From Acidobacteriota bacterium (GTDB lineage Bacteria; Acidobacteriota; Terriglobia; Acidiferrales; UBA7541), in contig QHYR01000084.1 in NCBI GenBank assembly GCA_003223315.1, forward strand, positions 1-39,020: a DNA stretch of 39,020 bases, written 5' to 3'. Made by a program: the position numbers and the translations under genes. The notes under the pieces are model-generated. The model was not told where the DNA came from. It ran no database searches and saw only the letters and a list, made by a program, of their open reading frames with translations. Below are positions 3,052-32,554 of the stretch, piece by piece. The first letter of the stretch is position 1; each line of letters opens with the position of its first letter.

Positions 3052-4071
3052 CTAAGGATGCGCAGAAAGACTTACACCGTAAGATGCGGTGGCTGGATTG
3101 TAAAGCGGTTCGATGCGCACCGATTTTGCCTTCGGTTCGTAGAAGGCAGAGTGGTGGTGGTAAACGTATCCGCCAATGCTATAGCCGATCACCGAACCTA
3201 CCAAGGCATCGGATGGAAAATGGTTGTCTCCTGTGACTCTGGCGATGGCCACGCCCGTCGCCAAACCGTAGAGTGCAACATGCAACCAAGGATGGCCCGG
3301 CGTCTCCTCAACCATCACACGTGCAAAGGCCCAGGTGGCGGCCGCATGGCCTGAGGGAAAGGAGCCGCTGAAAGTATAGACGTCGCTGTCATCCGGCCAG
3401 AATTTTCCTGTGCCGGGAGCCACATAGGGGCGCTGGCGGTTGGTCGCAAGTTTGAGCGCCTCCACGACCAGGCTGGCGTCGGCTATGCTTTCGAGCGCAA
3501 GCATGCCGGTCTCGCGCGGTCCTTCCTTGTGATCCAATTTTCCAATCAAGTAGGTGAGGCCGGCAGCGGGGACCAGGACGTAGCCGGAGCCGAGGTGCGT
3601 AAAATCATTGCTAACGCGAATTCGCGTGGGAGATGGTCCGAGCGCGTTCATGGCCCGCACATCGTAAACAAATGCCAGCGTCGTCGCCGTCGCAAAAGGG
3701 ACAAGCCAAAGCAGTTTCCGCCCGCGGAGCCTGGCCGGTGCGGTCCAGATTCCTGCTTGATCGCGGAACACGTCGCCGAAGCACCTCAGTGGAGCAGACG
3801 CTAAATCGCAGGTACTGCCGGCACTTTGAGTCGCAGTGGGGCCGGCAGCCTGAGCGGCAGTGGGGCCGGTATTCCCCGGCGCCTGGGTGTCCGGGGCCGG
3901 AGGCGAGGAGGAAGTCTGCGGCACAGCGATGGGGGAGATGGATCCACTATCTACGAAGGACGACGCATCGAATGAAGCCTGTGCCCGGGTAGACGGAGAG
4001 AGAGCAAGCAGAAGCGTGGCGACTAATATCGGCTGAATCGCAAGACCCAAAAGTTGATAGGCCCTTTTCAC
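3052..4071 (-). CDS. Exported PAP2-family phosphatase
   Basis: 339 residues. It starts with a Sec signal peptide (MKRAYQLLG, hydrophobic 10-24, likely cleavage after TRA near residue 30). A Pro/Thr/Ala-rich linker (about 40-90) follows, which includes an eight-residue duplication encoded by a 13-base core repeated at 3833 and 3857. The phosphatase domain holds the three acid-phosphatase motifs: K207-x6-R214-P215, PSGH at 239-242, and R278-x5-H284-x3-D288. H242 and H284 would be the catalytic histidines. The family dephosphorylates lipid phosphates such as phosphatidic acid or undecaprenyl pyrophosphate; the precise substrate is unknown. It is convergent with the radical SAM gene. Confidence 0.9.
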   Translation of the reverse strand: MKRAYQLLGLAIQPILVATLLLALSPSTRAQASFDASSFVDSGSISPIAVPQTSSSPPAPDTQAPGNTGPTAAQAAGPTATQSAGSTCDLASAPLRCFGDVFRDQAGIWTAPARLRGRKLLWLVPFATATTLAFVYDVRAMNALGPSPTRIRVSNDFTHLGSGYVLVPAAGLTYLIGKLDHKEGPRETGMLALESIADASLVVEALKLATNRQRPYVAPGTGKFWPDDSDVYTFSGSFPSGHAAATWAFARVMVEETPGHPWLHVALYGLATGVAIARVTGDNHFPSDALVGSVIGYSIGGYVYHHHSAFYEPKAKSVRIEPLYNPATASYGVSLSAHP

Positions 4072-19798: not shown

Positions 19799-20428
19799 AT
19801 GGAATATTCTCGCAGAAATTTCATTAAAGCTGCGGGTGTGGGTGCCGTCGCTGTGACGACCACGGTTAGCGCCGTGGTCTCGGGAGCCGAAGTGGCTGCC
19901 GCTGCTCCCAAGCCTTCTCCTCTGGCGATTCCGGACGCCATGAACCGGGAGACCAACACATTCAATATCAACGGCAAGAACTATCGAGCGGAATACGAAG
20001 CTCGAACGACACTGTGGGAAGTGATTGCCGTGAAGCTGGGCCTGACGGGGACGAATCGGAGCTGTAATCGGGCAAGCTGCGGCGCGTGCAGCGTCCTGAT
20101 TGACGGCAGACCGTTTTATTCCTGCCATACGCTGGCCATGGAAGCGGTGGGCAAGAAGATCTTCACAGTGGAGGGTTTGGGCGATGAGAAGAATCTGCAT
20201 CCCTTGCAGCGCGTAGCGCACCTGTACTCGGCGGCGGAGTGCGGATTCTGCACACCGGGTTGGGAGGTAACGGCAAAGGCCCTGCTGGACAAGAATCCCA
20301 ATCCGACAGTCGAGCAAGTGAAGGCGGCTTTATCGGGACATATTTGCCGCTGCGCGGCTTATGCAGCCATCGTGCGTACCGTCATCGATACGGGCAAGGT
20401 ATTGCGAGGGGAGGCGGAAATCGCATGA
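19799..20428 (+). CDS. Tat-exported 2Fe-2S subunit of a molybdenum hydroxylase (PaoA/YagT-like)
   Basis: 209 residues from the ATG at 19799, with GGGAGG 8 bases upstream; the in-frame TTG at 19793 is less likely. The N-terminus is a twin-arginine signal (SRRNFIKAAG, hydrophobic up to about 30). A plant-ferredoxin-type cluster is formed by C89, C94, C97 and C109; the second cluster by C148 and C151 (CGFCTPG) and C183 and C185 (CRC). The usual CRCTGY reads CRCAAY. It passes electrons from the Mo site to FAD. The export signal sits only on this subunit, as in E. coli PaoA, where the assembled complex is carried to the periplasm. It overlaps the next gene by ATGA. Confidence 0.92.
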   Translation: MEYSRRNFIKAAGVGAVAVTTTVSAVVSGAEVAAAAPKPSPLAIPDAMNRETNTFNINGKNYRAEYEARTTLWEVIAVKLGLTGTNRSCNRASCGACSVLIDGRPFYSCHTLAMEAVGKKIFTVEGLGDEKNLHPLQRVAHLYSAAECGFCTPGWEVTAKALLDKNPNPTVEQVKAALSGHICRCAAYAAIVRTVIDTGKVLRGEAEIA

Positions 20429-22968
20429 GTTCAGAACCACAGCATCCCCAGAAGCCGAAGGAAAAGCTCGAATCCAAGCCTGAATTGTGTGTCATCGTCA
20501 ATCAACCCATGGTGCGGAACTACTCCACCGGCGGCGGACATGGGCCGGAAGGCACGCTGGTGGAAGGCGATCAGAAGTTTGTTACGCGAAAGTGGCAGGG
20601 CTACCCTCCCCAAAATCTCAATCTGATCGGGAAACCGCATCCCCCCATGCCGGAAGTGGGGATACCGCGGCTTACCGGCAAAGCGGAATACGCCACTCGC
20701 GTTAATTTGCCGAATATGCTTTGGGTCGAGCTGCTTACCAATCCTCATCCTCGCGCCCGGGTAAAGACGATGGATGTTTCCAAGGCGGAGAAGATGCCGG
20801 GTGTGGCGCACATATTGACGGCCCAGAACGCGCCGAAGACGTATCCGTTTCCAGACGAGCTTTTCTTTCAGGGCGAAGTCGTAGCCATTGTTGCCGCGGA
20901 GACCGAGGATCTTGCCGAGGATGCCGTCGCGGCTATTCAGGCGGAATATGAAGTTCTTCCGTTCGCTTCCAATCTCGAACAGGCCGCGGCGGCGAATGCG
21001 CCAGACCTAACGATTACGGCTGGTGGCAGGAAAAGGCCCGGCGTCGTGAAGACGCTGAACGAATGGGGCGACGTCGATAAAGCATTTGCAGAAGCGAATA
21101 TCGTTAGGGAATTTAGCTATTCCTTTGCCGGGGCGATCCCCGTTCCCATGCAGCCCAACGGTTGCGTAGCCAAGTGGGACGGCGACAAGCTGACGATTTG
21201 GGGAATGGGACAGTCGATTTATAATTCCCGAAACAATACCGCCAAAAGGTTGGGAATCTCGCCGGAGAATATTCGATTCATCAACAAATGGAACGGCGGG
21301 AGCTTCGGAGGAGCGCTGCCTACCGGCGATAAGTTTTATGCCTGGATCGCGCACATCTCCAAAGTGACCGGCCGTCCCGCCAAGTTAATGCTACCCAAAA
21401 ATCAGGAACTCGCGTTCCTGCAAATAAAACCGCAGACGTTCAGCAAATTCAAGGTGGGTGCTACCAAAGACGGAAAGATAACGGCGTGCCAGCGTGAGTT
21501 CCACGTCAGTATGGGCGCGAATCAGGGAGGGATACAAGAAGGAGGAGGCGGCCGGTCCGAGCTGTACCTCCACGTCGTTCCCAATTGGAGGGAGATCGGC
21601 GTCCTCTATCGGACCAATGCCATAGTCATGGGCTCCTCGCGGAGCAATTTCCAGCAGGAGTTCAAGTGGGCCTGGGAACAGATGATGGACGAAATGGCGG
21701 AAGCAGTCGGCATGGACCCGGTTAAGTTCCGGTTGCTGAATGTGCAGAAACCGGGGACAAAGGTGGCCCTCAAACAGGGAGGTCCGACGATCGTTCCCAT
21801 GCCTGAGACTGAGAACGGGGAACTTCACTACGATAGTTATGCTTCGGTCGAAGTGCTGGAGGAAGGAGCGAAAGCGATCGGGTGGGAGAAGAGGAATCCT
21901 GTGGCCGGCGGAAACCCTGGAAGGTTCAAGCGAGGATTCGGCGTCGCGATGTCTCAGCACCACGCCGGACGGGTGGGTTACCAGGAAGGCGAGGCAGGCT
22001 ACGATTGGGTCCTGGCCAGGAACAAGGCACAAGGCAATGTTACTCCGGGCGGCGAGGGCGACATCTTCAATGCGGAACTGGAGCTGGATGCAGAGGGCAA
22101 TGTGGTTATGTACTTCGCCCAGCCGGACAGTGGCACGAACCACGGCACCGCGATGGCTATCCAGGTAGGGGAGATTTTGGGATTCGCGACTTTGGATCAC
22201 ATCCGGCTGATCTGGGGCGACTCGGACCTGGCACCCTCAGCTCCACCCTGGCATAGCGGCCTAACCACTCAGTTGCAAGGTGGGGCGCTCTGCAATGCCG
22301 CCGACAAGATGCGAAAGGACCTCCTCAGCCGGGCGAGCAGTGTTCTCAAAGTGGATGCGGCGAAACTACAAATACGGGACGGCGTGATCTCCTCGCCAGA
22401 GGATCCAAGAAAAAGGATCACGTTCGCAGAACTGGTCAAAGCCAACAAGAGCCCCATACGCCAAGTGGGCCGGTGCCTGCATCCGGGATCCATCGGCAGA
22501 GCGATGAACCGTGGGATCGGGACCTGTTTTGCGGAGGTGGAGGTGGACACCTGGACAGGCGACTGGCGCTACGTCAGGGTGGCGTATTGCCAAGATGCAG
22601 GCAACGTCATGAATCCGCTTTTGGCTAACGCTGATCAGCACGGATCGTTGGTCCAGAGCACCGGGATGGCGACCGATGGCATTCCGTGGGATCGCGAGTT
22701 TCCGGGCACGTTTCATTACAGCGTCGGTTACTTGTCCTACCGGCTCCCTACCATAATGGAACCACCGGAACAGACCAATGTATTTATTAATAGTCTAGAA
22801 CCGCGCTGGTTTTTTGGATCGAAAGGTTTCGCGGAAACGGCCATCGGGGCCGCTCCCAGTGCACTGGCAAACGCCATCTATAACGCCTGCGGGGTAAGAA
22901 TCCGAGAGCATCCGATCACGAAGGACAAAATACTGGCGGGCTTGAGAGCCAAGGGAGAAATCGTATGA
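20425..22968 (+). CDS. Molybdopterin-binding subunit of a xanthine-oxidase-family enzyme
   Basis: 847 residues from the ATG at 20425; the frame extends upstream but the ATGA overlap with the 2Fe-2S gene fixes the start. The first 70 residues are a family-atypical Pro/Lys-rich extension. The a/b hammerhead domain starts near GKAEYATRV, and FFQGEVVAIVAA is typical. NGGSFGG supplies the first Moco contact, and RSNFQQEFKWAWEQMMDEMA the second. Near the C-terminus GSKGFAETAIGAAPSALANAI contains the expected catalytic Glu (about residue 804). No signal peptide is present. The family hydroxylates or oxidises aldehydes, purines or N-heterocycles; the substrate here is unknown. It overlaps the FAD subunit gene by ATGA. 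Confidence 0.92.
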   Translation: MSSEPQHPQKPKEKLESKPELCVIVNQPMVRNYSTGGGHGPEGTLVEGDQKFVTRKWQGYPPQNLNLIGKPHPPMPEVGIPRLTGKAEYATRVNLPNMLWVELLTNPHPRARVKTMDVSKAEKMPGVAHILTAQNAPKTYPFPDELFFQGEVVAIVAAETEDLAEDAVAAIQAEYEVLPFASNLEQAAAANAPDLTITAGGRKRPGVVKTLNEWGDVDKAFAEANIVREFSYSFAGAIPVPMQPNGCVAKWDGDKLTIWGMGQSIYNSRNNTAKRLGISPENIRFINKWNGGSFGGALPTGDKFYAWIAHISKVTGRPAKLMLPKNQELAFLQIKPQTFSKFKVGATKDGKITACQREFHVSMGANQGGIQEGGGGRSELYLHVVPNWREIGVLYRTNAIVMGSSRSNFQQEFKWAWEQMMDEMAEAVGMDPVKFRLLNVQKPGTKVALKQGGPTIVPMPETENGELHYDSYASVEVLEEGAKAIGWEKRNPVAGGNPGRFKRGFGVAMSQHHAGRVGYQEGEAGYDWVLARNKAQGNVTPGGEGDIFNAELELDAEGNVVMYFAQPDSGTNHGTAMAIQVGEILGFATLDHIRLIWGDSDLAPSAPPWHSGLTTQLQGGALCNAADKMRKDLLSRASSVLKVDAAKLQIRDGVISSPEDPRKRITFAELVKANKSPIRQVGRCLHPGSIGRAMNRGIGTCFAEVEVDTWTGDWRYVRVAYCQDAGNVMNPLLANADQHGSLVQSTGMATDGIPWDREFPGTFHYSVGYLSYRLPTIMEPPEQTNVFINSLEPRWFFGSKGFAETAIGAAPSALANAIYNACGVRIREHPITKDKILAGLRAKGEIV

Positions 22969-23957
22969 AACCGATATCCGTCTACCGACCCTCAAGCGTC
23001 GAGGAAGCCATTCAAATCCTGTCACTCCATGGAACGCAAGCCGGTGTCTATGCTGGCGGAACCGACCTTCTGATTCAGTTGAAGAATAGAATCGAAGCGG
23101 CACCGACATTTTTGGTGGACATCAAGAAGATCGACGGCCTGCGCTACATCAAAGAAGATGGGCAAGGCGGAGTACAGATCGGCGCCTTGACCAAATTGGC
23201 GGAGCTGGCGGAATCGGATTTACTGGCGAAGAGATACCCGATGCTGGTGGACGCGGTCCAGCATATCTCTTCGCCCGAACTGCGAAATGCCTCCACCATT
23301 GGTGGAGACATGTTGCAGCAGGTGTGGTGCCAATATCTGCGAGGCGGTTATTCCTGCTATCGCAATGGCGGATACATCTGCTATGGGGCGATTGGGGACA
23401 ATAGCTATTACCATTCGGCCATGGGCGGGCGACTTTGCTATGCGGTGTATCCGGGAGACATTGCCACGGCACTCATTCCGCACGACGCCAAAGTGAAGGT
23501 AGCCACCCCCTTCGGAATGAAAGAGCTGACCATCGAGCAGCTCGTGCCGGGGGACATGATGGTGGACGGGAGACTGCAATCGCATGTGCTCCGCTTCAAC
23601 GAGATTCTGACCGAAGTAACGATTCCAGCGCCAAAGGCGGGGTTCAAGGCTTCGTTCGAGAAGCTGCGGCCGCGAGGGGTTTGGGATTTCGCCATGGCCT
23701 CGCTGGCGATGGGATTACAACTGCAGGCCAATACGATCGAGGATGCGCGGGTGGTGTTCGGCGGGATCGCCGGCAAGCCTTGGCGGGAAACCGCCGTGGA
23801 GAACTTCCTCAAAGGCAAGACGCTCAGTACGGATTTGACGCGTCAGGCACTTGCGATGGCGCTGACGAATGCGGCGCCTCTGAAATACAACGCGACGAAG
23901 ATCGATATGGCGAAAGGGCTGCTCGCCTCCGGCATCGCCAAGCTGGCTGCTGTTTAG
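22965..23957 (+). CDS. FAD-binding subunit with four-Cys insertion (PaoB/YagS-like)
   Basis: 330 residues. FAD-binding motifs AGGTDLL (30-36) and NASTIGGDM (108-116) mark the CO-dehydrogenase-flavoprotein fold. Between them and the C-terminal domain four cysteines, C122, C131, C139 and C158, occur in a Tyr/Gly-rich loop (CQYLRGGYSC, GGYICYGA, GGRLCYA). This pattern matches the extra 4Fe-4S cluster loop known from E. coli PaoB and 4-hydroxybenzoyl-CoA reductase beta subunits. It carries electrons from the Fe-S subunit through FAD to an acceptor. It overlaps the large-subunit gene by 4 bp. No signal peptide; periplasmic location would depend on the Tat signal of the small subunit. Confidence 0.93.
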   Translation: MKPISVYRPSSVEEAIQILSLHGTQAGVYAGGTDLLIQLKNRIEAAPTFLVDIKKIDGLRYIKEDGQGGVQIGALTKLAELAESDLLAKRYPMLVDAVQHISSPELRNASTIGGDMLQQVWCQYLRGGYSCYRNGGYICYGAIGDNSYYHSAMGGRLCYAVYPGDIATALIPHDAKVKVATPFGMKELTIEQLVPGDMMVDGRLQSHVLRFNEILTEVTIPAPKAGFKASFEKLRPRGVWDFAMASLAMGLQLQANTIEDARVVFGGIAGKPWRETAVENFLKGKTLSTDLTRQALAMALTNAAPLKYNATKIDMAKGLLASGIAKLAAV

Positions 23958-23985: not shown

Positions 23986-24636
23986 TTACCGAGGGCGCGA
24001 TTTTGCGCTTTCCGCTGCCAGCCGGATCGCATCAGGCAGTTCGCGCAACGAGACAATTCCGCCGGTCGGCGCGTATAAAGCCAATCGCCTGCCCTGCTCA
24101 TAATCATTGATCATGAGAATGGAGTTGGTGCCGAGCTCCCGGGCCACGCTCAGGCTCTCGATCGTATCCACCAGAGTAATTACATGTTCCGGCTGAAGTG
24201 ATGCGCTTTCCATAGCCTTCGCAAGAGGCGCCGCTTTGACGCCGCCGGCACTGTCTCGATTCCAAACCGCAGAGAATAAGTCCTGTACTGCAAATCTTTC
24301 CAGGAAGCGGCGGATGGCGGCCCCGGAAAGGGATGACGCGATGAGCAATCGGATGCACATCTTCTTCAATTCAGAAAGCGCCGGCGCCACGTCTTCATAA
24401 AGCTCAACCTGTTCAACGGCCTGAACCTCCAGTTGTTCGGCAATCTCTCTGTCCGGTGGATTGAGTTTGCCGCCCGCTTTCTCGATCAGTGCCAGAACTT
24501 GCCAATACGCTTCACTTCCGGACGAGTTGATGGATGTCTTATCGAATAAACGAGCCGCGATCTGGTCGAATTCCAAGGCAGGGAATTCGGCGAGACATCC
24601 GACAGGTTCGAATAAAACAGCGTGGATGGTCTGCAT
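23986..24636 (-). CDS. HAD-like protein with altered catalytic residues
   Basis: 216 residues from the ATG at 24636, with AGGGA about 8 bases upstream; a GTG at 24654 is also in frame. The HAD fold is recognisable: motif I region AVLFEPVGCLAE (6-17), motif II LLIASSLSGA, a Lys in GGVKAAPLAKAM and the motif IV region ITLVDTIESLSVARELG. However, motif I DxD reads E10-P-V12, so both aspartates are replaced, and motif IV has VD instead of GD or DD. Phosphatase activity is therefore doubtful. It may be a regulatory or structural HAD protein. It is convergent with the Mo hydroxylase operon and lies just upstream of the receptor gene on the same strand. Confidence 0.75.
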   Translation of the reverse strand: MQTIHAVLFEPVGCLAEFPALEFDQIAARLFDKTSINSSGSEAYWQVLALIEKAGGKLNPPDREIAEQLEVQAVEQVELYEDVAPALSELKKMCIRLLIASSLSGAAIRRFLERFAVQDLFSAVWNRDSAGGVKAAPLAKAMESASLQPEHVITLVDTIESLSVARELGTNSILMINDYEQGRRLALYAPTGGIVSLRELPDAIRLAAESAKSRPR

Positions 24637-24688
24637 GGTCAAGTCCCTACACACAGCACAACTCGCGGGAAGGCAGGCATACGCCCGC

Positions 24689-28151: not shown

Positions 28152-29921
28152 TTATTCCAGCGGTTCGAGTTTAATGATCGTCGCTCCGAGATTGTTGCCT
28201 ACCCAGAAGGTCGGCGGGTTGGTTGAATTGTCGACATTCACGCGACGCACGTTGGTGGTGCGGGGCAGGAGATATTCGGTGACCTCGCCTGCTCTGGTGT
28301 TCACGCGCACGATGTGGTCGTTGGACATTCCGCCCGTCCAGGCGTACCCCGCGCTGTCCAGGATGGCATCGTACGGGTTCGTCCAAGGAGTAGGCACCGC
28401 ATACTCCTGGAATTTTTCTGTCTTGGCGTCAAACATCCCGATATTGTTGCCGCGGTATTCGCCGAACCATAGCCGATCTTGCGGGTCCACGTGACCACGA
28501 CGCGGAGCGGAGTTGGGAGTGGGAGTCGCCCAGCGAGTGACTTTCATCGTTTTTGCATCCACCCTGGTGATGTACGTCCCGCCAAAGTTCATGCCATAGA
28601 AGTTGTTCTTCGAGTCCGAGGCAACGCCATAGGAGCCGAGGTTCAGCTTTGCGAGCGGCGAATCCGGCGGGAGACCTTGCGTGTAGTCGATGGTGACCCA
28701 CTTGTCCGATTTCAAATCCACCTGATATTCGTCATCGCCTCCCACCCAAACCTTACCGTCAACATCGACGCGAACCGGCGTCACCATTGCCGTCCGGGCC
28801 GCATCACCTTTTCCGAAGGTCGGGATTTTCCACGTTTTGAACTCCTGCGTCTTGGGATCAAGCCTCGCGATGACTCCCTGATACATGGTGCCGAGCCAGA
28901 CGTAGCCGCTGGGATCCAATTCCAGGTCGAGCGCGCCCCGCGGTTCGTTTGGATCCATCACCGGAACCGGGTATTCCACGGTCTTGCCGGTCTTGGGATC
29001 AAGTTTGCCAACGTATTGCGAACCGAAATCCGAATACCACACCATCCCTTGCGCATCGATAACGGCATCGTGCGGCATGGCTTCCGGGCGCGGCAAATCG
29101 TACTCGGTTATGATCACCTTCGTTGCTTTGCCTTTGGGCCGTGCATTCGTCTTCAGAGGATATTCCCATTGGGAAATGCTGCTGAGATTCACGGTGGCCA
29201 TGTATTCGGCCCGCTTTTGCACGACCGCGGTTGGGGGCGGCGGCCCTCCACCCATGGGGCCCTCCGCATCTCCATTGCCAGCCGGCCCTCTGGGCCGCAG
29301 CTGCGGACGGCTGGGAGTGCTGCCTTGAGCGTAGGTGGTCATGCGCCGCAGCACCTGGGCGAATTCGGCGGCGTCATGCTGCGATCGTACGATTCGCTCC
29401 AGCGTGTGGCAGCTCGTACAGCCCAGAAATACCTGCTTCTGCTCCTGTGTCCCCGGCATGCTCATCAGCCACTCTCCATTCGAGAGTTGACGCGAGAGGT
29501 CTCGGGCCTTGTGCAGCTTCAGATCCAGCTCCGCTGCTTTCTGTGCTGTGACTTCGACCGGCCCCGGATTGTCCATTTCATATCCGACCGCCCTGATGCG
29601 GAGGGAGTATTGTCCCGGTTCTAGTCTGCTCCGAGGGAAGCTGTACTGGCCTTGAGCGTCGCTCACCACCGTGACGGTAATTGTGGATCCCGCCCGCTTT
29701 GCGCTAACCAGTGCGCCTTCCATCGGGCCTTCCTCTTGCGAAGTCACGCGGCCTCCCAGCGCCGAGGCAGATGAATTTTGCGCGTTGAGGATTTCGAATC
29801 CGGCGCAGAAGAGAAGTGCAGACACTATCAGCAGCAGGATTGTCGTCGCGCCAAGCACGCGCATGGCCTTTTTCACGTTGACAGATACGAATTGCCTCGC
29901 GATGGCCGTCGTAAACCTCAT
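28152..29921 (-). CDS. Exported CarboxypepD_reg / CxxCH / streptogramin-lyase-like propeller fusion
   Basis: 589 residues; AAGGAGG lies 5 bases before the ATG. A membrane segment at about 22-40 serves as signal or anchor. Residues about 53-135 form a carboxypeptidase-regulatory-like Ig domain (GGRVTSQEEGPMEGALV). A central segment holds CTSCH at 168-172, a cytochrome-c-type heme site with possible distal helix RMTTY, and then a Gly/Pro-rich linker. The C-terminal half (about 268-589) is a Vgb-like beta-propeller with repeated units such as AVIDAQGMVWYSDFG and LDPKTGKTVEY. Similar fusions are known in Acidobacteriota but not characterised. Periplasmic electron transfer or lyase activity is plausible; neither is proven. 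It is divergent from the large propeller gene. Confidence 0.85.
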   Translation of the reverse strand: MRFTTAIARQFVSVNVKKAMRVLGATTILLLIVSALLFCAGFEILNAQNSSASALGGRVTSQEEGPMEGALVSAKRAGSTITVTVVSDAQGQYSFPRSRLEPGQYSLRIRAVGYEMDNPGPVEVTAQKAAELDLKLHKARDLSRQLSNGEWLMSMPGTQEQKQVFLGCTSCHTLERIVRSQHDAAEFAQVLRRMTTYAQGSTPSRPQLRPRGPAGNGDAEGPMGGGPPPPTAVVQKRAEYMATVNLSSISQWEYPLKTNARPKGKATKVIITEYDLPRPEAMPHDAVIDAQGMVWYSDFGSQYVGKLDPKTGKTVEYPVPVMDPNEPRGALDLELDPSGYVWLGTMYQGVIARLDPKTQEFKTWKIPTFGKGDAARTAMVTPVRVDVDGKVWVGGDDEYQVDLKSDKWVTIDYTQGLPPDSPLAKLNLGSYGVASDSKNNFYGMNFGGTYITRVDAKTMKVTRWATPTPNSAPRRGHVDPQDRLWFGEYRGNNIGMFDAKTEKFQEYAVPTPWTNPYDAILDSAGYAWTGGMSNDHIVRVNTRAGEVTEYLLPRTTNVRRVNVDNSTNPPTFWVGNNLGATIIKLEPLE

Positions 29922-30334: not shown

Positions 30335-31594
30335 ATGATGCTTCGAAAAATTCTCTTTGTTGCAGCCGCTCTCGTCCTTAGCTACTTCGTTGGTTCGCGG
30401 TTCGACTTCGTTCCCATTTTGAAGACCGCAACGGCCCTGGCGCAAGGGCAGCGAAGCTTATCTTCCCGGGATTCGAAGAGCGGCAGTCGACCCGCGGCGG
30501 ACGCCTCGATTGGCGGCGGCGATATCGCTCCCATTCGCGCCGTCGCTGATCCTTATCCTGTCTTCGATGGAATCGCGCTGGATCCCGCCAATAACCTGGT
30601 GGCCATCAGCGACGAAAATCACCACAGCCTGCTGGTCTACGACCGCGCCAGCGGCGGCAAATCGGACGCCGTGACCGAGCCGCGCCGCCGCATCATGGGA
30701 GCGGCAACGGAAATGGGGTTTGTCGCCGGCGTGACCATGGATCCCGAGCACCACGAAGTCTACACCGTGAATAACGATTCCGGCGATCAGGTAACCGTTT
30801 ACTCCTATCAGTCTGACGGAAATGCGGTGCCTGCGCGCCGGTTGTTTGTGCCACATCAATCGTGGGGGCTTTCGCTGGCTCTGGGCCGCGGAGAATTGGC
30901 GGTAACCACGCAGGAATTGAATGCCGTCGAGATTTACAGCCGCACCGCCAAGGATCTGACCAAACCGTCGCGGCAGATCGTGGGAATGGACACTGGCCTC
31001 GAAGATCCGCATGGCGTGGTCATGGACGAACGGCATAACGAAATCGTGGTCAGCAATCACGGCAATTGGACTCAATTCCGGCCTTACACTAACTACGATC
31101 CCTTGAATCTGGACCAAAAGTATGTGCCCGGGCGCTTCGATCCGGCTTCGATCACGGTGTATCCCATTACCGCGAACGGGAACGTGAAACCGGAGCGCAC
31201 CATTCAAGGCGCGCACACCGCGCTCAACTGGGCCATGGGTATCGATGTGGATGCGCAACACGACGAGATTGCCGTGGCTAATTACGGAGACGATTCGGTC
31301 CTCGTCTTCAAACGCGATGACAACGGCGACGCGGCGCCGATTCGGCGTATCTACGGCCCCAATACCCACATCGTGGGTCCCGTAGGAGTCGCGGTGGATA
31401 CCAAGAATAACGAGCTGTGGGTCGCCAACTATGGGGATCATACGGCGCTGGTATTCTCCCGCACCGACAGTGGCAATGTTGCTCCGAAGCGCATCGTGCG
31501 CAACGCGCCGGCCGAAGCTGCCACCTGCGGATTCACGAATGCTTCCGCCGCGGCCTACGATCCTAAACGCGGCGAGATTCTGGTTCCCAATTGA
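30335..31594 (+). CDS. Exported beta-propeller (NHL/lactonase-like), part before in-frame TGA
   Basis: 419 residues to the TGA at 31592-31594. A hydrophobic N-terminus (MLRKILFVAAALVLSYFVG) gives a signal peptide, with cleavage near ALAQ. The rest is a chain of about six propeller blades, each with a pattern like GVAVDTKNNELWVANYGD followed by VFSRTDSGNVAPKR. The TGA falls in the middle of a blade, after EILVPN, and the same reading frame resumes at once with the second half of that blade. So this is probably one protein of about 739 residues cut by one stop codon. Two perfect hairpins follow the TGA directly. Inferred to be a periplasmic binding or enzymatic propeller; function unknown. Confidence 0.8.
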   Translation: MMLRKILFVAAALVLSYFVGSRFDFVPILKTATALAQGQRSLSSRDSKSGSRPAADASIGGGDIAPIRAVADPYPVFDGIALDPANNLVAISDENHHSLLVYDRASGGKSDAVTEPRRRIMGAATEMGFVAGVTMDPEHHEVYTVNNDSGDQVTVYSYQSDGNAVPARRLFVPHQSWGLSLALGRGELAVTTQELNAVEIYSRTAKDLTKPSRQIVGMDTGLEDPHGVVMDERHNEIVVSNHGNWTQFRPYTNYDPLNLDQKYVPGRFDPASITVYPITANGNVKPERTIQGAHTALNWAMGIDVDAQHDEIAVANYGDDSVLVFKRDDNGDAAPIRRIYGPNTHIVGPVGVAVDTKNNELWVANYGDHTALVFSRTDSGNVAPKRIVRNAPAEAATCGFTNASAAAYDPKRGEILVPN

Positions 31595-31636
31595 GTGAGC
31601 GTGCCGAGAGTCTCGGCGTTTGCCAGGCTGGCAAAC
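31592..31636 (+). promoter_or_regulatory. In-frame TGA followed by two abutting perfect hairpins
   Basis: TGA at 31592-31594. Hairpin 1 at 31603-31617: GCCGAGAGTCTCGGC, a 15-base perfect palindrome. Hairpin 2 at 31618-31636: arms GTTTGCCA and TGGCAAAC, loop GGC. The apical loops begin 14 and 31 bases after the TGA. Bacterial SECIS elements, which direct selenocysteine insertion, typically lie in this range with a G in the first loop positions. A readthrough element or chance are alternatives. Confidence 0.45.
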
Positions 31637-32554
31637 GGCGCCGTCGCTCCGAAGCGGATTCTGGAAGGACAGGCCACACACTTGAGCCGCACCATGCACG
31701 GAATGGATTTTGATGTGCCTCACGACGAGTTTTTCATCCCCGTGGCGCTCTCCGGCGCGGTCCTCACTTTCCCTGGTGGCGCGGGAGGCTCGGAGCCGCC
31801 CAAGCGCGTGATCCAGGGCAGCAAGACGGGTCTAGTGCGGCCGCAGACGATTGCGGTCGATCCCGTGCACGATGAACTTTTCGTAGGTGACCCGAGCGCC
31901 CGCGCTGTTTATGTGTTTCACCGAACGGATAACGGCAATGTGGCGCCCATCCGCGTGCTGCAAGGCACGAAATCGAAGCTCGTCGAGGTGACCAGCGTGG
32001 CCGTGGACCCGGTTCACGACCTGTTGATCGCCGGCCAGAGAGGGCCCACTCCACAAACGACGGGATTATTGATTTTCAAGCGAACCGACAACGGCGACGT
32101 GGCTCCTCGGGCCATCATTGCGGGCCCAAAAACCCGCATGTACCACTTTCGTCAAGTGGTGGTGGACCCGAAGGTGGGCAAGATCTACGTCGCGGTGCAG
32201 GATATTTGGTATAAGCCGGCCGCGCCGTATGCTTCGAGCAACGTTCGCAGCGACTTCGCGGCGGAGAAAAATGAAGAAGCACTCAAGTGGACCACCTCGC
32301 CGTTTGATCCCAGCACCAAGGGCTTCATTGGCGTGTGGGATATTCACGACGACGGCGATGTGCCTCCGCGCGCGGTGATCCGCGGTCCGGAAAGCCGCTT
32401 GCTCGAGCCTGGCGGGGTGGCGCTGGATCCGGGACACGGCGAGGTGATCGCGGTGGACGGCGGAGTCAACGGCTATCAGGTCTACCTCGTGCCTCAATTC
32501 TTCCAGTCCGAATTTTGGAGCTTGCTCGCACATGGGTTGCGGCTTCAGCCGTAA
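31595..32554 (+). CDS. Beta-propeller, part after the in-frame TGA
   Basis: 319 codons in the same frame as the preceding segment. The first triplet after TGA is GTG, which could restart translation, but there is no clear ribosome site and no signal peptide on this half. It continues the blade pattern: VSAFARLANGAVAPKR, then VYVFHRTDNGNVAPIR, LLIFKRTDNGDVAPRA and similar units, about four to five more blades. It ends with a blade containing GFIGVWDIHDDGDVPPRAV. Because the break is mid-blade and the second part has no export signal, a separate functional protein is unlikely. It is best read as the rest of the upstream propeller. Confidence 0.65.
   Translation: MSVPRVSAFARLANGAVAPKRILEGQATHLSRTMHGMDFDVPHDEFFIPVALSGAVLTFPGGAGGSEPPKRVIQGSKTGLVRPQTIAVDPVHDELFVGDPSARAVYVFHRTDNGNVAPIRVLQGTKSKLVEVTSVAVDPVHDLLIAGQRGPTPQTTGLLIFKRTDNGDVAPRAIIAGPKTRMYHFRQVVVDPKVGKIYVAVQDIWYKPAAPYASSNVRSDFAAEKNEEALKWTTSPFDPSTKGFIGVWDIHDDGDVPPRAVIRGPESRLLEPGGVALDPGHGEVIAVDGGVNGYQVYLVPQFFQSEFWSLLAHGLRLQP

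Follow-up and report, generated by a model that had tools for sequence, protein, structure and literature searches.

The region described here is a stretch of 39,020 nucleotides from a soil Acidobacteriota bacterium (contig QHYR01000084.1, assembly GCA_003223315.1), called the window below. On its plus strand, an open reading frame covers positions 30335–31591 and is followed by a TGA triplet at 31592–31594, after which the identical frame stays open until a TAA at 32552–32554. With the TGA read as selenocysteine (Sec), positions 30335–32554 make up one selenoprotein gene for an exported NHL-type β-propeller of 739 residues, with Sec as residue 420 (the features of this gene given below are all on the plus strand). 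The call is based on homologues, on a structural model and on an NHL match (PF01436) in the N-terminal part, with 47.8 bits against a Pfam gathering score of 20; a Lactonase match is also present in the N-terminal part in the Pfam scan. The N-terminus, MMLRKILFVAAALVLSYFVGSRFDFVPILKTATALAQ (30335–30445), is signal-peptide-like, an inference made without a predictor, and the full-length homologues also start with hydrophobic N-termini. Export of the protein is inferred from sequence alone. The downstream open reading frame (31595–32554) begins with GTG, and the string TGAGTG thus contains a stop codon abutting a possible start codon.

Downstream from the TGA, the initial annotation had described two abutting perfect palindromes (31603–31636), and both are exact: GCCGAGA-G-TCTCGGC (15 nt, 31603–31617) and GTTTGCCAG-G-CTGGCAAAC (19 nt, 31618–31636). 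RNAfold of 31592–31640 returns precisely these two hairpins, at −20.2 kcal/mol. The limits are slightly refined by the units conserved in the family. Hairpin 1 (31604–31616; 5 bp, 3-nt loop) starts 9 nt past the UGA, and hairpin 2, the SECIS hairpin (31617–31637), has 8 bp and a 5-nt apical loop, AGGCU (31625–31629), starting after 30 nt past the UGA (family consensus N-G-[G/U]-N-N). In that loop, RNAfold pairs the A with the U, leaving GGC. The whole segment is merely moderately stabler than shuffled sequences (z of −1.3), and for this reason stability alone is not taken as evidence; hairpin 2 by itself reaches −11.4 kcal/mol (z = −3.7). A stem of 6 bp directly adjoining one of 8 bp, each capped by a 3-nt loop, is present a single time on the window's plus strand, and 150 first-order Markov windows of equal size contain no such tandem. 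The Rfam scan of the region gave no SECIS or other credible family, only one chance match.

A search with the 120 residues around the TGA against contigs from one genome per species gave 48 Acidobacteriota loci, 40–96% identical around the site and belonging to 22 assemblies (tallied from accession prefixes). The aligned codon is TGA in 47 of the 48 and TGC (Cys) in the remaining one, L008; the 47 include L034, off by one codon, and L048, which lacks its 5′ end, and each of these two carries TGA. No other sense codon, TGG included, is found at the site among the 48 loci. The full-length homologues are 39–90% identical to the window protein, and nucleotide changes cluster at third positions upstream and downstream of the TGA alike. 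Such a bias downstream of the TGA indicates translation of this part and selection on its protein product; constraint on the frame is as strong past the TGA as ahead of it, as read from the nucleotide sequences. In L008 (TGC at 3181–3183), both hairpins are lost and CGG replaces AGG, while the same assembly still carries two copies with TGA (L014 and L021). From these sequences we infer that the replacement of Sec by Cys coincides there with decay of the SECIS. The family thus has almost no Cys form, with a single Cys homologue found.

These data bear on the simplest rival explanation, a gene broken by a recent nonsense mutation, as a pseudogene or through an assembly error. A single in-frame stop does look like this, and the source assembly, like those of most relatives, is a metagenome-assembled genome. 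Against it, the same TGA recurs in 47 of 48 loci and in full-length paralogues, and the downstream protein is conserved with third-position-biased changes. Since the TGA recurs across 22 assemblies, mutation and assembly error are excluded, and a broken gene is left with next to no support. The initial annotation had proposed that the residue in homologues would decide, a conserved Cys pointing to Sec and a variable residue to a nonsense mutation; no ordinary variable codon occurs and the only alternative is Cys, which favors Sec and speaks against a nonsense mutation.

With further paralogues added, 76 distinct sites are available, and no insertion or deletion is needed to align any of them over the 57 nt that start with the TGA (hairpin 1 at columns 13–25, hairpin 2 at columns 26–46). 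The distances are the same at all sites: 9 nt from UGA to hairpin 1, 13 nt for hairpin 1 and 30 nt from UGA to the SECIS loop. In hairpin 1, 94.2% of the cells are paired, with 43 double changes and a covariation of 0.274 (0.122 for shuffles and at most 0.101 for versions slid along the alignment). In hairpin 2, the values are 95.6%, 57 double changes and 0.298 (0.178 and at most 0.126, respectively). Each hairpin exceeds every shuffled and slid control in cells paired, double changes and covariation. The shuffle controls ignore shared ancestry, and no probability is attached to them; the slid controls keep ancestry and score far lower. The conservation of hairpin 1 by covariation had been missed when only the window was read. 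At two sites (L016 and L108), hairpin 1 is apparently rebuilt in a shifted register, CCAG/CTGG, as read by eye.

The strongest covarying pair of hairpin 2, columns 30/42, is C-G in 43 sites, U-A in 32 and U-G in one. In all but one site, these columns are the silent third bases of a Phe and an Ala codon: TTC occurs with GCG (42 sites) and TTT with GCA (32 sites), with one TTT/GCG and one TAC/GCG. Two silent positions therefore change together, which is the best single argument for a signal in the RNA. The Arg codon in the loop is AGG in 47 of 47 genes, while outside the loop AGG accounts for 6.7% of the Arg codons of these genes. In other paralogues the loop residue becomes Ser or Gly, and the loop is still N-G-[G/U].

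The published rules for bacterial SECIS elements (PMC13188914) call for an apical loop of 3–9 nt on an upper stem of 4–16 bp, a G within the first two loop positions, mostly then G or U, a distance of 16–37 nt between UGA and apical loop, and a free energy of at most −7.5 kcal/mol. Hairpin 2 satisfies all of them, and the fit suggested by the initial annotation holds. The loop has 5 nt (3 if the A-U pair closes) on 8–9 bp; position 2 is G and the following base G or T in 76 of 76 sites; the spacing, 30 nt in all 76 sites, is permitted but lies above the middle of the range; and the energy of hairpin 2 alone (−11.4 kcal/mol, as above) is within the limit.

The SECIS of E. coli fdhF, a 41-nt element confirmed in 5388 E. 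coli genomes, is likewise a hairpin soon after the UGA, with the loop AGGUCU where the propeller family has AGGYU. Unlike fdhF, the propeller family has an extra conserved hairpin of 13 nt between the UGA and the SECIS hairpin, a raw spacing of 30 nt, and no bulged U in the stem. In fdhF the UGA-to-loop distance is 17 nt, and it is 17 nt also in the propeller family if hairpin 1 is folded out (30 minus 13). From this equality we infer that hairpin 1 either folds out or stacks coaxially on hairpin 2, and that its folding would keep SelB at the usual distance from the UGA. The covariation supports, as a possibility, a two-hairpin SECIS as a distinct type, with its function inferred.

The genome of the window (4.3 Mb, 91% complete, 381 contigs) contains the four genes for Sec insertion that the initial annotation had proposed to look for, adding that absence of selB or selC would refute a Sec reading. 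All four are present, which favors Sec: selB on contig C371 (354.7 bits over its pieces, above the curated cut-off), a tRNA-Sec with a UCA anticodon on C342 (Rfam 63.6 bits; also ARAGORN), selA on C42 (555 bits) and selD on C265 (367 bits). No formate dehydrogenase alpha subunit above the family cut-off is found in this genome. A fragment of a xanthine-dehydrogenase-type molybdenum hydroxylase gene (L057:862-1683) adjoins the tRNA-Sec gene.

Two further rivals take the TGA as a real event of translation without Sec. In the first, translation terminates at the TGA and is re-initiated in a coupled manner at the next GTG, so that a split propeller is made of two polypeptides. The TGAGTG overlap and the GTG start of the downstream frame favor this. 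However, the codon after the TGA is GTC, which is not a start, in 16 of the 76 sites and GTA in three, and on these grounds re-initiation at the GTG is rejected; the cut would also fall inside a blade, and the covarying hairpin 2, the Cys homologue and the sel genes would be left unexplained. In the second, the UGA is decoded as a standard amino acid, such as Trp, with stimulation by the hairpins and without SelB. In general, a stem-loop downstream from a stop codon is able to promote readthrough. But neither TGG nor any sense codon besides TGC occurs at the site in the loci compared, a complete Sec system with a UCA tRNA is present, and the loop follows the G-[G/U] rule of bacterial SECIS elements. 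Both rivals are very improbable. The conserved UGA, the conserved RNA structure, the sel machinery and the constraint after the UGA together lead to the Sec reading; insertion of Sec at UGA 31592–31594 is very likely, although inferred from sequence and without protein evidence. Among the options first listed (Sec, programmed readthrough, mutation or assembly error), Sec is strongly supported.

In an AlphaFold model of the window protein made with 39 homologues (model residues 1–680, window 30512–32551; mean pLDDT 90.8, pTM 0.90), the DSSP strands resolve as 12 four-strand (A-B-C-D) blades. In our reading of the model, the N-terminal strand seems to supply the D strand of blade 12. Blade 7 (31553–31663) comprises DSSP strands 348–350, 355–360, 366–371 and 382–384, and Sec, model residue 361, comes directly after strand B. 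The TGA is thus located between strands B and C of one blade, in agreement with the first view that the frame and the blade pattern continue across the TGA, which splits a blade and is not at a domain boundary; the open reading frames and the 12-blade model support both points. At the position of Sec, blades 5 and 6 have the Tyr of ANYGD repeats. The longest inter-blade loops are those entering blades 7 and 8.

The best solved sequence relatives are the NHL domains of TRIM2, TRIM3 and Brat (PDB), with which the window protein shares the repeat sequence, above the Pfam cut-off. Unlike these propellers, it contains Sec, and its single chain forms 12 predicted blades. The criterion applied for an NHL-repeat propeller was a single six-bladed ring; the 12 blades of the model are predicted without a determined number of rings. 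The fold search in the PDB gave solely tandem propellers, at a whole-model TM of about 0.3. Because tandem propellers superpose this poorly, the blades may form one large ring or two nested rings, as a prediction of the model only.

Around Sec, an Asn preceding strand A of blade 7 (model residue 343; 31538–31540) and the His of an RTxH motif preceding strand A of blade 8 (model residue 396; 31697–31699) are each invariant (39 of 39), and a role for them as partners of Sec is inferred. Invariant also are N360, R393 and T394. A Sec flanked by N360, N343, R393, T394 and H396 resembles an active site, again by inference. Unlike in most redox selenoproteins, no conserved Cys is found near Sec in the family alignment. 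A Cys–Sec redox pair was considered as a general mechanism and rejected, the Cys at −22 of the window protein being retained only in the closest relatives. In the absence of a conserved Cys partner, the argument for a redox role is the general chemistry of Sec. On balance we lean toward a catalytic or metal-binding residue, by inference and without activity data. The alternative is a true selenoprotein in which Sec is structural or serves in selenium storage or binding. For it speak the tendency of propellers to bind rather than catalyze, the absence of a partner Cys and the many paralogues per genome. Against it are the one strictly placed Sec with the same five invariant residues around it, and the inference that a storage protein would tend toward several Sec. 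The non-catalytic alternative is the less likely of the two, though far from negligible.

The genome contains six or seven such genes, the window gene included, a point missing from the initial annotation: six members with the TGA occur there (the window gene and two past the right end of the window on contig C104, two in tandem on C226, and one on C100), with a fragment on C204. Six paralogues and a fragment are what is expected of a diversified enzyme family. The two paralogues past the right end (locus L101), C104:39168-40811 on the minus strand and C104:46257-47942 on the plus strand, carry TGA and SECIS. Between them are a gene resembling the HAD-like open reading frame of the window (23986–24654) and a molybdenum hydroxylase fragment, and the neighborhood therefore seems to be partly duplicated.

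The family occurs in seven of the 396 Acidobacteriota genomes sampled, and every full-length copy has the internal TGA. In some matches a second stop is maybe the gene's own end; these were not checked individually. All seven genomes have selB, against 254 of 396 overall (curated cut-off); Sec coding is thus apparently widespread in the phylum. An incomplete genome of 2.5 Mb (G226) has 14 SECIS matches, and G131, G338 and the genome of the window (G000) have six each. The family is patchy, expanded in a lineage-specific manner and almost wholly Sec-dependent.

There is no fixed operon around the family members. Recurrent neighbors, named partly by eye, are TonB/Oar-type receptors (15 loci), Vgb-like lyases (5), ABC/FtsX-type permeases (5), Rieske oxygenases (4) and xanthine-dehydrogenase-type molybdenum hydroxylases (3). 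The last occur in the window (20239–23957), in L101 and in L103. The selenoprotein gene adjoins a gene on the minus strand (28152–29921) for a carboxypeptidase-regulatory-like and Vgb-like propeller protein, homologues of which are near family members in L001, L017, L019 and L020. Such neighbors hint at a processing of extracellular compounds, which is possible but not conclusive.

In the explanation proposed, positions 30335–32554 would encode, as a single gene, an exported 12-blade NHL-type β-propeller selenoprotein. SelB carrying Sec-tRNA(UCA) would bind the N-G-[G/U] loop of hairpin 2 and deliver Sec at UGA 31592–31594, and translation would run on to the TAA at 32552. Hairpin 1 would be part of the signal and, by folding 13 nt away, would leave an effective UGA-to-loop distance of 17 nt. 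Sec, where strand B of blade 7 ends, would work with the invariant Asn, His and Arg, without a Cys partner, and the product would be an exported redox enzyme; there are no data on either export or activity.

A 2026 review (PMC13188914, Table 1) inventories 119 prokaryotic selenoprotein families, among which there is no β-propeller or NHL family. No NCBIfam selenoprotein model (June 2026) scores above its cut-off for the window protein, and no NHL or propeller selenoprotein is found in the open-access literature searched, although unpublished NCBI annotations could exist. With the inventory families the propeller family has in common the UGA and the bacterial SECIS, and envelope or exported types are also among them (TlpA-like, UshA-like and TonB-receptor proteins). 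Many inventory families have CxxU or UxxC, and nearly all selenoproteins have Cys homologues; in contrast to most of them, the propeller family lacks a Cys partner, and only one Cys homologue of it is found. The authors of deep-Sep state that selenoproteins without Cys homologues may be missed or filtered out (PMC12013277), which would explain the absence of the propeller family. SELENBP1/SBP (methanethiol oxidase) is also a β-propeller tied to selenium, but it contains no Sec (PMC10277263), and the window protein has no match to an SBP/SELENBP profile in the Pfam or NCBIfam scans. The propeller proteins are likely to be a selenoprotein family not described before, whose fold is an addition to the prokaryotic list, and the family was probably overlooked since its genes are annotated as two pieces.

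A bolder reading, for which the case is evenly balanced, sees an undescribed class of exported 12-blade-propeller selenoenzymes, with a two-hairpin SECIS that restores the canonical distance and an expansion, among Acidobacteriota of soil and the subsurface, that reaches 14 sites in a single genome, maybe as a main reason why the Sec system is kept there. The β-propeller is a fold not yet in the published inventory of prokaryotic selenoproteins. The covarying hairpin 1 offers a testable proposal for how bacterial SelB gauges the distance between UGA and SECIS. Selenoprotein numbers in Acidobacteriota, with selB in 254 of 396 sampled genomes, may be undercounted, since such genes are read as two truncated open reading frames and offer hardly any of the Cys homologues on which search programs depend. 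In the genome of the window, which lacks a formate dehydrogenase alpha subunit above the family cut-off, the propeller family may be what maintains Sec coding.
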